Positions 8,070-46,335 of a DNA stretch of 64,000 nt are shown here, piece by piece (position 1 is the first letter of the stretch; every line of letters begins with the position of its first letter). The notes under the pieces were generated by a model, which was not told the origin of the DNA, did not search any database, and saw only the letters and a program-made list of their open reading frames with translations. Both the position numbers and the translations under genes were made by a program. Location: NCBI GenBank assembly GCA_003576905.1, contig QEVG01000014.1, positions 1 through 64,000 of the forward strand, read 5' to 3'. Source of the DNA: Planctomycetota bacterium (GTDB taxonomy: Bacteria > Planctomycetota > Phycisphaerae > UBA1845 > UTPLA1).

Positions 8070-9773
8070 ATGCCCGACGCAACCCGTAAGCCGCTGCGCC
8101 GATTCGTGGCCGAGGACGCCCCTCTCGGCGAATGGCCGGTGGTTGAGGCCTATTACCGCGATCTGGAATCGCGCCCGCTGACCGGGCGCGACACGCTGGA
8201 GACGTGGCTTCTGGACTGGTCGGACCTTGATGCCTGGCTTGAGGAAGAGGGGGCGATTCGGTACGTCGAAATGACCTGCCAGACCGACGACCCGGTCCGT
8301 GAGAAGCGGTACCTCGACTTCATCGAGAACGTGCAGCCGGAGGCCAAGGTCTGGGCCAATCGACTTGAAAGGAAGTTTCTCGCGTGTGAACACCGGTCGG
8401 CCCTGCCGCTCGACCGGTACGAAGTGTTTATCCGCCAGATCGAGAACAGCGCCCGGCTTTTCCGCGAGGAGAATGTCCCCTTGCAGACCGAGGACGACAA
8501 GCTCCGCCAGCAGTATCAGAAGATCACGGGCGGATTGACGTGCATGCACGACGGGCGCGAGCAGACCATGCAGCAGATGGCCCGGTATCTCGAAAGCCCG
8601 GACCGCGTCGTGCGGCGGGATGCGTGGGAAAAGATGGCCGCGAAGTGGGCAGGCGTCTGCGAGGAGATCGAGGGTCTTTACGACCAGATGGTGGCCGTTC
8701 GCCACAAGATCGGGGTCAACGCGGGATTCCCAGGATACCGCGACTACGCATTTCGAGAGTTGGAACGATTCGATTACACGCCGGGAGACTGCGCGGCATT
8801 CGCGGATGCGATAGAGCAGATCGTCGTTCCGGCGTCGATGCGGCTTGCCATGCAGCGGAAGGCACAACTTGGCGTCGAGACGCTGCGTCCGTGGGACATG
8901 GCGGTCGATCCGCAGGGCCGCGAACCGCTCCGGCCCTTCGAGGGCGCGGCCCGGCTGATCGAAGGCTGCGCGGGTATCTTCGCGCGCGTACACGCCGATT
9001 TCGCGGGACAGTTCCAGCGGATGCGTGACGGCGGCCTGCTGGACCTGGAAAGCCGCAAGGGCAAAGCCCCCGGCGGATACATGATGGAATACAAGGGCCG
9101 CCGCGTGCCGTACATTTTCATGAATGCCGTCGGCACGCATGACGACGTGCAGACCATGCTCCATGAGGGCGGCCACGCCTTTCACGTCTTCGCCGCCGCC
9201 GATGAGCCGATCGCCGCCCTGCGCGACCCGCCGATTGAGTTTGCGGAAGTGGCGTCGATGGGCATGGAGCTTCTCGCCGGACCGCACCTCGATGCTTTTT
9301 ACAGCGCGGCCGACGCGCGGCGTGCATGGGTCGATCACCTTGACGGCATCGTCCGGTTCTTTCCGTACATGGCGACGATCGACCAGCTTCAGCATTGGGT
9401 CTATACCCATCCCGGGCATACGCGGGAGGAGCGCAGGTCGGCCTGGCTGGCACTCAATCGGCGCTTTGCCCACTGGGTTGACTACACCGGGCACGAGGAG
9501 GCGCTGGCATTCGGCTGGCATCGCAAGGGCCATCCTTTCACGGTGCCTTTCTATTATGTCGAGTACGGCATCGCCCAACTCGGCGCATTGGGGGTGTGGC
9601 TCAATTCGCTTCGGGATTATGGCGGGGCCGTGGCGCGATACCGCCAGGGGCTGGGTCTTGGCGGCCGGAGGCCCCTGCCCGAACTGTTTCGCGCGGCCGG
9701 CGTCACGTTTGACTTCTCGGCGCGGGCGATCGAACCGATGATCCAGGCACTCGGTCGGGAAATTGCCGTGTGA
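8070..9773 (+). CDS. M3-family oligoendopeptidase
   Basis: 567-aa zinc metallopeptidase of the M3/M3B (oligoendopeptidase F) type. The HExxH motif is HEGGH at residues 365-369, and the usual third-ligand Glu region follows (IEFAEVASMGMELLAGP). No signal peptide, so cytoplasmic. The family cleaves short peptides of roughly 5-20 residues, usually for peptide recycling. Start ATG 8070 follows GCGAGGG; a longer in-frame N-terminus (from 8001) has no good ribosome site. Monocistronic. A second, exported M3 peptidase lies at 36630-38546. Confidence 0.88.
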   Translation: MPDATRKPLRRFVAEDAPLGEWPVVEAYYRDLESRPLTGRDTLETWLLDWSDLDAWLEEEGAIRYVEMTCQTDDPVREKRYLDFIENVQPEAKVWANRLERKFLACEHRSALPLDRYEVFIRQIENSARLFREENVPLQTEDDKLRQQYQKITGGLTCMHDGREQTMQQMARYLESPDRVVRRDAWEKMAAKWAGVCEEIEGLYDQMVAVRHKIGVNAGFPGYRDYAFRELERFDYTPGDCAAFADAIEQIVVPASMRLAMQRKAQLGVETLRPWDMAVDPQGREPLRPFEGAARLIEGCAGIFARVHADFAGQFQRMRDGGLLDLESRKGKAPGGYMMEYKGRRVPYIFMNAVGTHDDVQTMLHEGGHAFHVFAAADEPIAALRDPPIEFAEVASMGMELLAGPHLDAFYSAADARRAWVDHLDGIVRFFPYMATIDQLQHWVYTHPGHTREERRSAWLALNRRFAHWVDYTGHEEALAFGWHRKGHPFTVPFYYVEYGIAQLGALGVWLNSLRDYGGAVARYRQGLGLGGRRPLPELFRAAGVTFDFSARAIEPMIQALGREIAV

Positions 9774-44086: not shown

Positions 44087-45103
44087 TTACCATTTTCCGG
44101 AAACGAACATTGCGGTGACCACCGGCACCGTGTATGCCAGCAGCGAAGCCGCCAGAACCGTGAGCGCGCTGACTATCCAGGCGCGCGGCAGGTGCAGATA
44201 ATCGCGCAGGGCGATGGCCAGGCAGGCCGTCGCGATCGCCGGCAGCCCTCCGCAGGCCGCGACAAGAACGGCGTATTGCCAGGCCGAAAGCTGATTCCAA
44301 CCGAGAGCCTCCGGAAGCATCGGTTGCCAATCCACGTACAGTGAGCGGGGTACGGCGACCGCAATCGCCAGCAGGAGTACGATCATCGCGCCCAGCACGG
44401 GCGGCGCGCAATAAACCACCACTCGTAGAATGTGAAGCTTTCGAACCCGGCACCGCTCGAGCGTCTGGTGCAGCGTGAACAGCACGGCTGCGGCCCCCAT
44501 GAAACCCAGAAGGATCGTCGCGGGCAGACAGAGATAGCGCGGATCAAGCGACCTGGGCCACTCCGCGAGAAGCGACAGTTGTTCAAGGATCGGGTCGTGA
44601 GGATGCAGTCTTGTGAAGCGGGGGCTTCGCCAGGCCCTCGCTCCGAAAAAAGTGACCGCGATCCATACGATCAGCCAGGCCAGAAGGTGGAGGCCGGCGA
44701 GGGCAAGTGTTGTCGTAAGCGCAAGCTGGGTGAGGAGCGGACCGACGTGTATCGGATCGTACAGCGTCACACGCTTCCAGAACCGCCGGGGAAAGAGAGC
44801 GGCTGCCGTGGTTCGCATCCACGCGCGAAAAGGTCCGCGGCGCCACGCATGTTCGAAGAGAAAGTCCCCTCCCCGGATGCGTGATTCCAGCAGCCGCCGC
44901 CAGTCGACCGGCAGGCCGCACTCCGGGCAGCGGGCGATCGTCAACCCTCTCAGGTTGTAATCACACCGGGGGCAATAGACTTCAAAGGAAACTTCGGCCC
45001 ACCGAGGGGCCTCGTCGGAAAGCAGCGCCTCCGCGCGAACAGACGCGTCAGCCTCGGGCCGCGCAGCCACGGATGAGACGGAACGGCGTTCCTCAGTCGT
45101 CAC
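44087..45103 (-). CDS. Zinc-ribbon membrane protein, unknown function
   Basis: 338 aa from GTG 45103, chosen because GGGAG lies 7 nt upstream; a longer frame to 45235 has no ribosome site. A zinc ribbon near the N-terminus (VYCPRCDYNLRGL...RCPECG, two CxxC pairs) is followed by about five or six membrane spans. Similar ribbon-plus-membrane proteins are frequent in Phycisphaerae, from memory. Function unknown; possibly folding or assembly in the membrane. Confidence 0.7.
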   Translation of the reverse strand: MTTEERRSVSSVAARPEADASVRAEALLSDEAPRWAEVSFEVYCPRCDYNLRGLTIARCPECGLPVDWRRLLESRIRGGDFLFEHAWRRGPFRAWMRTTAAALFPRRFWKRVTLYDPIHVGPLLTQLALTTTLALAGLHLLAWLIVWIAVTFFGARAWRSPRFTRLHPHDPILEQLSLLAEWPRSLDPRYLCLPATILLGFMGAAAVLFTLHQTLERCRVRKLHILRVVVYCAPPVLGAMIVLLLAIAVAVPRSLYVDWQPMLPEALGWNQLSAWQYAVLVAACGGLPAIATACLAIALRDYLHLPRAWIVSALTVLAASLLAYTVPVVTAMFVSGKW

Positions 45104-45209
45104 GTCGCATCTCCCGTCTTCGCGCGGCGCCGGGCAGGCAGCGGTCGCCGGCGCAGCATCGCGCGGGCACAGCGACTGACTCGGGCCGACGCGCCGGCAC
45201 CCTCCAGCG

Positions 45210-45278
45210 CTATACGAAGAAGAAGATAAGGTCAATGATCGCGAAGATCAGGTTGATAATCACGGCGAAAAGGTCCAT
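45210..45278 (-). CDS. Predicted 22-aa hydrophobic peptide
   Basis: Encodes a 22-residue, almost wholly hydrophobic peptide starting MDLFAVIINLIF and ending LIFFFV. Its only polar residues are Asp2, Asn9 and Asp16, spaced by seven. It would form one membrane helix with a polar stripe. ATG 45278 has GGAGGA 5 nt upstream, and the leader contains a perfect 7-bp hairpin. Size and composition recall type I toxin peptides or small membrane modulators. It lies 106 bp upstream of the zinc-ribbon membrane protein on the same strand. Real expression is unproven. Confidence 0.5.
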   Translation of the reverse strand: MDLFAVIINLIFAIIDLIFFFV

Positions 45279-45302
45279 GGCAATCCTCCGATCGGCGAGG
45301 AA

Positions 45303-45322
45303 GGGGAGCAAGATCGCTCCCC
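45303..45322 (-). promoter_or_regulatory. Hairpin in the leader of the 22-aa peptide
   Basis: GGGGAGC (45303-45309) and GCTCCCC (45316-45322) form a perfect 7-bp stem with a 6-nt loop, 14 nt upstream of the ribosome site. A TAGAAT element about 5 nt further upstream could be a -10 box, placing the hairpin at the 5' end of the mRNA. Confidence 0.5.
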
Positions 45323-45433
45323 CCATATTCTATCCGACCAGACACCGCAGCGACCGGAAAGTTGGGACGGCGTCGGCGCCGTACCGTCCACGGGCGGTTA
45401 ACCGGGAGATTGCCTCGGCGCGGATTGGTCCGG

Positions 45434-45778
45434 TTATCCGTGGTAGAAATCCTCGCGCACGATCTTCCCGTTTTTCCATGTCTGGACGGCCACCTGACGC
45501 TGGGTCACGCGGCTTCCGCCCCTGGGGGTGAGATCAAAGGTCCACTCCACGGCGGAATGATCGCCGTCGACGAGCACCCGGCCGACGGTCGCTCCGTGGA
45601 ACTGCACGTTGTTTACGAATTGTTCCTCGTAGGTGCGGTTCGTCGCCTTGCCGACCCGGGGGTTGACGCCGTTCTCGGACATGACGACCTCGTCGGCGTA
45701 GTACCGGTCGAACGTTTCCAGGATCTTGCCTGCCATGATCCCGTCGATGACCGCCTTAGTCAGTTCACGCGTGTTCAT
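45434..45778 (-). CDS. SnoaL-like/NTF2-fold protein
   Basis: 114 aa of the SnoaL-like polyketide-cyclase/ketosteroid-isomerase fold: an N-terminal helix ending FDRYYADEVVMSENG, then beta-strands HSAVEWTFDL, SRVTQRQVAVQTW and GKIVREDFYHG. Small cavity proteins of this fold bind or isomerise hydrophobic molecules; most are uncharacterised. Start ATG 45778 has AAAGGAG 8 nt upstream. It follows the MarR regulator by 71 bp on the same strand, so it is a likely regulated target. Confidence 0.8.
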   Translation of the reverse strand: MNTRELTKAVIDGIMAGKILETFDRYYADEVVMSENGVNPRVGKATNRTYEEQFVNNVQFHGATVGRVLVDGDHSAVEWTFDLTPRGGSRVTQRQVAVQTWKNGKIVREDFYHG

Positions 45779-45849
45779 TGCAAATTCTCCTTTCGAGTAG
45801 ATTCGTTGTTGTCCCTTCTGCGACGCGAGGCCGCATGGCGCGCCCGCGC

Positions 45850-46320
45850 TTATTCGCGGCGCCGTGCCTTGACCAGCAGGCGATTGAGCTCGGTCAGTTC
45901 CGCCCGCGTCAGGTGGCCCAGCTGCCGGCGATGAAGATCGAGTACCGGCTGATCGAGACTCTTCAGGAGCGTAAGGCCCGCCGGAGTGATCTTCACGAGC
46001 ACGACGCGGCGGTCGTCTGGCGTCCTGCGCCGCGCGACGAGCCCGGCGCGCTCCAGTCGATCCACAAGGCGAGTCACGTCCGGATCGAAGGTTACCATTT
46101 CGGCCGCGATCCGCCGGCAGGGGAGTCCCTCGCCGCCGTGGCCTCGGAGGATTCGGAGGACGTTGTATTGCGGGCTGGAGATCCGGTGCCGCTGGAAGAG
46201 TTGGTCGAACTCGCGTGAAAGCAGATCCTGCGTGCGCTCGAGATTGAGCGCCGCCTCCTGCTCGGGCGCCTCGAACGGCTTTCGCTTGCCGATTTCCTTT
46301 TGCAGGTTTGACGTCGCCAT
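45850..46320 (-). CDS. MarR-family transcriptional regulator
   Basis: 156 aa. Winged helix-turn-helix of the MarR type: SPQYNVLRILRGHGGEGL, recognition helix RRIAAEMVTFDPDVTRLVDRLE, wing VARRRTPDDRRVVLVKIT, and C-terminal dimerisation helix. MarR dimers bind palindromes overlapping promoters and release on ligand binding. It heads a two-gene unit with the SnoaL-like protein. Its own promoter holds a short inverted repeat that could be an autoregulatory operator. Confidence 0.9.
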   Translation of the reverse strand: MATSNLQKEIGKRKPFEAPEQEAALNLERTQDLLSREFDQLFQRHRISSPQYNVLRILRGHGGEGLPCRRIAAEMVTFDPDVTRLVDRLERAGLVARRRTPDDRRVVLVKITPAGLTLLKSLDQPVLDLHRRQLGHLTRAELTELNRLLVKARRRE

Positions 46321-46335
46321 TTGAATACCTACCCA

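Follow-up and report, generated by a model that had tools for sequence, protein, structure and literature searches.

A conserved 22-codon gene family encoding predicted single-helix membrane peptides in planctomycetes

Among described small membrane proteins, TisB comes closest to the peptide reported here. TisB (29 aa, Enterobacteriaceae, tisB/istR-1) is a tiny single-helix membrane peptide with one polar face, for which a pore dissipating the proton motive force has been proposed. Two of its residues, K12 and Q19, are essential, and salt-bridge partners have been proposed (PMC11449926). The toxins IbsC and ShoB are short and hydrophobic, and are exceptions in lacking positively charged C-terminal residues; in section 4 of the same 2021 review, only Proteobacteria and Firmicutes are named for membrane type I toxins (PMC8309996). 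YohP of E. coli (27 aa) is a monocistronic small membrane protein consisting essentially of one transmembrane domain (PMC7549839).

The peptide analysed here has 22 residues and is encoded in a window of 64,000 nt (the whole stretch of DNA that was analysed), which belongs to contig 11 of a planctomycete draft genome of 4.71 Mb in 65 contigs (G000), where one copy of the gene was found. It shares with TisB the tiny size, a predicted single membrane helix and one polar face. However, it comes from another phylum, and its polar residues are acidic or amide with almost no Lys or Arg, whereas TisB has its essential K12 and Q19. No antitoxin RNA was found, either in a scan for TANAAT boxes or in Rfam, which gave no match at gathering score at the peptide locus. 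Likened by description only, the peptide resembles IbsC and ShoB, except that no antisense partner was found for it; by description it also resembles YohP.

The peptide gene and its surroundings

The features of the locus are the following, by position in the window.

45210..45278, minus strand: 22-codon ORF and TAG stop, encoding MDLFAVIINLIFAIIDLIFFFV; read directly, with 18 homologous genes of 21-22 codons
45285..45289, minus strand: Shine-Dalgarno sequence GGAGG, 6 nt 5' of the ATG; read directly
45303..45322, minus strand: 7-bp leader hairpin GGGGAGC-GATCTT-GCTCCCC; present here, not conserved
45327..45332, minus strand: -10 box TAGAAT, its first base 54 nt 5' of the ATG; recurs as TANAAT in relatives
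44087..45103, minus strand: zinc-ribbon multi-span membrane protein with a probable GTG start, downstream of the peptide; Pfam (E up to 0.001) gave no match

The ORF runs from an ATG at 45278 to a TAG stop at 45212-45210, and its product carries D2, N9 and D16 at 7-residue spacing. An alternative in-frame ORF of 38 aa would start from the ATG at 45326. Because this ATG abuts the -10 box, and because just 4-7 in-frame codons precede the conserved start at the loci of three relatives (G008, G035 and G025, with open frames of 26, 29 and 26), the conserved form is, as judged from these frames, the one of 22 aa and not that of 38 aa.

Conservation of the gene and of its residues

The 22-aa query matched 12 of 200 related genomes, the window's own included (E up to 10). 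In all 11 non-self matches the ORF begins at residue 1, with ATG in ten cases and GTG in one, and stops directly after residue 22. Under the same settings, a composition-matched control peptide (M followed by the reversed remainder) gave a single match in the 200 genomes, at E 1.68 and inside a 430-residue frame. Chance matches to a hydrophobic stretch would rarely end right after residue 22, and the recurrence of the ORF with its start and length goes beyond chance. Iterated profiles run over the order (114 genomes) brought the family to 19 peptide genes in 18 genomes, 18 of them 22 aa long and one 21 aa. The additions were four 22-aa genes, the 21-aa gene in G007, and the genes of G086 and of G080 (GTG start). 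Recurrence of the ORF in relatives had been set beforehand as the test that could refute the original prediction of a small membrane peptide gene; ORF, length and start do recur, in 11 of 199 other genomes at the first search and finally in 17 of the order's 113 other genomes. Members are found in 10 of the 17 genomes of the window's family (f1), in five genomes of f4 and in three of f8.

One genome (G025) carries two copies of the gene, 2.2 kb apart. These tandem copies (8859-8927 and 11052-11120 of L088) have similar leaders and flank an ORF of ~630 codons; this is the sole duplication seen.

A profile built from four f4 sequences recovered 6 of the 14 other then-known genes at their correct places (G000, G002, G014, G034, G035 and G104), at E 0.02-4.1 and among unrelated rows of similar E. 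This recovery is weak but independent support for a single family. Searched over the order, the same profile returned 36 rows; 25 of these were examined and held 11 members, one of them new (G080), and 14 non-members. A degenerate 69-base pattern, derived from known members and missing divergent ones such as those of G025 and G070, was then compared with the genome contigs of 84,980 species and gave 35 matches, 9 of which resemble the family while 26 do not by eye. The 9 family-like matches are all Phycisphaerae or planctomycete records, those named being MAGs. GGAG, AGGA or GAGG precedes the start in 8 of these 9, as opposed to 1 of the 26 others, and 14 of the latter have an in-frame stop or end in TGG. 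A Treponema match (L041) has Asn at positions 2, 9 and 16, but was rejected as a member, being a 7-residue repeat without a ribosome-site motif. Viral contigs gave 10 pattern matches, none of them family-like by eye.

No member outside the order was seen among the rows examined from wider samples. In the class sample (397 genomes, E up to 1), 34 rows lay beyond the known members, and the 18 examined contained one member, that of G007; in the phylum sample (392 genomes, E up to 0.3), the 14 additional rows were all examined and held none. The range of the family may nevertheless be wider than the order, because the profile used nearly misses true members: it gave G086 only at E 1.23 and left G080 unlisted. 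A 24-aa ORF of similar polar spacing in G044 (L136), MGWVNEIWNILLGIIEWVLLAAEG, is a possible distant member, and as an uncertain case it was left out of the family count. PDB, Pfam, PHROGs and PADLOC gave no confident match to the family, and no family model passes its cut-off. A literature search limited to open-licence papers found no paper on the 22-aa peptide.

Codon-level purifying selection, which had been named as a check on the prediction, was assessed by dN/dS in nine pairs over the 20-21 codons after the start. The ratio was 0.02-0.18 in seven between-genome pairs, with saturated dS in one further pair, and 0.36 between the G025 tandem copies; with sequences so short the values are rough, though their direction is consistent. 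Each pair shows 0-2 changes at second codon positions, and the pairs between genomes show 8-12 at third positions; of the 10 codons that differ between G003 and G014 beyond the start, 9 differ synonymously. This concentration of changes at third codon positions makes a non-coding cause of the conservation unlikely. The codons of the peptide are under purifying selection, and the 22-aa ORF is real and maintained by natural selection in these little-studied planctomycetes.

The conserved residues form a pattern. Residue statistics were taken over 17 aligned rows, G086 and G080 having been added later to give 19 members. All 19 have one of Asp, Asn, Glu and Gln at position 16, N16 being found in both G086 and G080. 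Polar residues or Gly occupy position 9 in 16 of 17 rows and position 2 in all 16 rows with a letter there, position 5 is polar in 14/17, and position 13 is Ala, Ser or Gly in 13/17. These positions make a polar/small stripe, 2-5-9-(13)-16, helically spaced on a surface otherwise made of Phe, Ile, Leu and Val. The polar heptad Asp2/Asn9/Asp16 of the original prediction is thus meaningful. None of 20000 shuffles attained the hydrophobic moment at 100 degrees. Every one of the 17 aligned rows has Phe at position 21, where G086 has Tyr. The 17 rows have GRAVY values of 1.3-2.6 and net charges of -1 to -4, with a positive residue in only one of them (Arg6 in one G025 copy); G086 has Arg12. The peptide is small and hydrophobic and is predicted from these properties to form one transmembrane helix, and the family falls within the definition of a small single-helix membrane protein (a conserved coding sequence of <50 aa with one hydrophobic span).

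Expression signals and neighbouring genes

The original prediction pointed to a strong ribosome site and a -10-like TAGAAT ahead of the peptide, and both have counterparts in relatives. GGAG or GAGG is present in 15 of 17 loci and AAAGG in the other two. TANAAT occurs 22-65 nt 5' of the start in 8 of 17 loci (35-54 nt upstream in these eight), against a control mean of 0.09 and maximum of 2 (179 windows). The box is missing from the expected place in the other nine loci: G034, G037 and both G025 copies have weaker -10 hexamers at that distance, the sole -10 candidates of G007, G008, G015 and G016 lie ~130-142 nt upstream, and G070 has no -10 candidate. Where an f1 locus has a TANAAT box (six loci), the match to a -35 element is poor (2-3 of 6). 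Twelve loci have a -10 candidate at -35 to -54, and their predicted leaders measure 23-42 nt.

The 7-bp leader hairpin, also part of the prediction, does exist at 45322-45303, but it is not conserved. Across the 17 loci, folding of the 5' leaders is not better than that of dinucleotide shuffles (z -1.2 for the window's leader and -1.2 to +1.5 overall, the leader start being guessed in five loci without a good -10 box). The hairpin was rejected as a conserved element, and a functional role for it is not supported. The short leaders and good ribosome site suggest that translation of the peptide is steady rather than repressed.

On the 3' side, G015 and G007 have in common an intrinsic terminator (stem-loop and T run) soon after the ORF, clear in these two only. 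Its position right after the ORF supports a one-gene transcript in both genomes. A constant 3' hairpin was not found in the 17 loci (mean z -0.6, lowest -2.5 in L084). A consensus scan of the window region gave no terminator and one promoter-like site; as this lies across the ribosome site and the beginning of the ORF, it is probably spurious. Two loci (L080 and L084) share a promoter-like site, TTGGCG-18-TACATT, ~24-56 nt after the peptide stop; it probably serves the downstream membrane gene.

The position of the peptide gene upstream of a zinc-ribbon membrane protein was correctly noted: the two genes lie ~105 nt apart on the same strand, and the order is the same in G002, where the adjoining zinc-ribbon homolog is 42% identical to that of the window. 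A partnership is not supported. The zinc-ribbon gene is adjacent only in G000 and G002, and the best homolog of G001 lies ~101 kb from the peptide gene. It was rejected as a general partner, and this neighbour is probably not functionally linked to the peptide. The zinc-ribbon proteins of the window and G002 share CPRCxYNLRGL...RCPEC, and most searched relatives have several homologs per genome. Upstream of the peptide, on the same strand, the window encodes a MarR-family regulator (45853-46323) followed by a SnoaL-like protein (45437-45781).

Comparison of 15 loci with surroundings of up to 20 kb (two shorter) revealed no constantly adjacent gene; the peptide is therefore not part of a fixed operon, nor an operon subunit. 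A gene of ~600 aa, convergent with the peptide gene (10070-11908 in L076), is shared by G001, G003 and G014 and has no Pfam match. It was rejected as a partner: it has no match in G000, G002, G008 and G015, and is on another contig than the peptide in G007, G009, G016 and G035. A single family of neighbouring genes reappears weakly, in 6 of the 15 loci, at scattered distances that reach 9 kb to either side. Both examples that were scanned proved to be sigma-70/ECF-like sigma factors, and these were taken as background.

Possible modes of action

The explanation we prefer, and to which we give about an even chance, is that of a micropeptide from a free-standing gene, with a single membrane helix that would act by packing against a partner protein or against further copies of itself, a function read from the anatomy described above. 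The gene would be transcribed alone, and the peptide would insert as one membrane helix that packs against another through the polar/small stripe, burying the always acidic or amide residue 16 at the packing interface. The preferred partner would be a membrane protein encoded elsewhere, stabilised or tuned by the peptide, with self-assembly as a close alternative. For a modulator of a core complex it would be odd that no more than 18 of the order's 114 genomes, and 10 of the 17 in the window's family, have the peptide; this patchy distribution may reflect either true losses or missed divergent copies. Further points against the preferred explanation are that a clear terminator is confined to G007 and G015 and that nine of 17 loci have no TANAAT box where one is expected.

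It is possible, though less likely, that the peptide is a type I toxin forming pores as proposed for TisB. Several copies would turn their stripes towards one another and so dissipate the proton motive force, under the control of an unseen antisense RNA. The gene is free-standing and, as far as searched, lineage-restricted, and the tandem copies of G025 and the differing genomic locations would also suit a toxin. The helix has a polar face like that of TisB, which is the only NCBIfam match and the best Pfam match to the family (E 0.011); this resemblance, though weak, points away from the partner or packing reading. However, the NCBIfam model matched just 2 of 17 members at E up to 1 (best E 0.0062), with 16.3 and 14.2 bits against a cut-off of 38, and 16 of 17 rows have no Lys or Arg, whereas TisB needs K12 and Q19. 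The predicted leaders are short, and their folding is unremarkable. On the antisense strand, TANAAT occurred in 0-1 of 17 loci in each 43-nt window between -237 and +321; since this was the one antisense promoter type scanned, the result is only a mild argument against a toxin. Judged by its sequence, the peptide is no TisB, although its mode of action may be similar. A planctomycete micropeptide that depolarises the membrane using only acidic and uncharged polar residues, without the lysine required by TisB, is a rather speculative proposal. If true, it would extend type I toxin-like systems beyond Proteobacteria and Firmicutes.

Self-assembly into a non-toxic membrane oligomer, either a small ion or proton pathway or a membrane organiser lined by acidic and amide residues, appears improbable. 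It would be in keeping with a peptide length of exactly one membrane span, with acidic, amide or small polar residues at positions 2, 5, 9 and 16, and with Ala, Ser or Gly at position 13 in 13/17 rows.

The same-strand zinc-ribbon gene downstream, in the order also kept in G002, could suggest a leader or attenuator peptide for that gene, which we consider very unlikely. Outside G000 and G002, the genes listed downstream of the peptide are different ones or convergent, neighbours differ between genera, the G001 homolog is distant, and conservation bears on amino acids rather than on codons. The changing neighbours largely refute this reading. A chance ORF or a remnant of a longer gene, as the very short length and the lack of a family model above cut-off might suggest, is hardly credible against identical limits that recur, purifying selection and a control search with one poor match.

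The peptide gene family is conserved, and the observation stands more strongly than a reading of the sequence alone could tell. Twenty-two codons lie below the usual annotation limits; a gene of this size can nevertheless be found and validated through conservation alone in largely uncultured bacteria. The family is a nearly minimal membrane protein, with one span, one polar stripe and natural variants in 18 genomes, and through it the capabilities of a lone helix that buries one acidic residue become directly testable.
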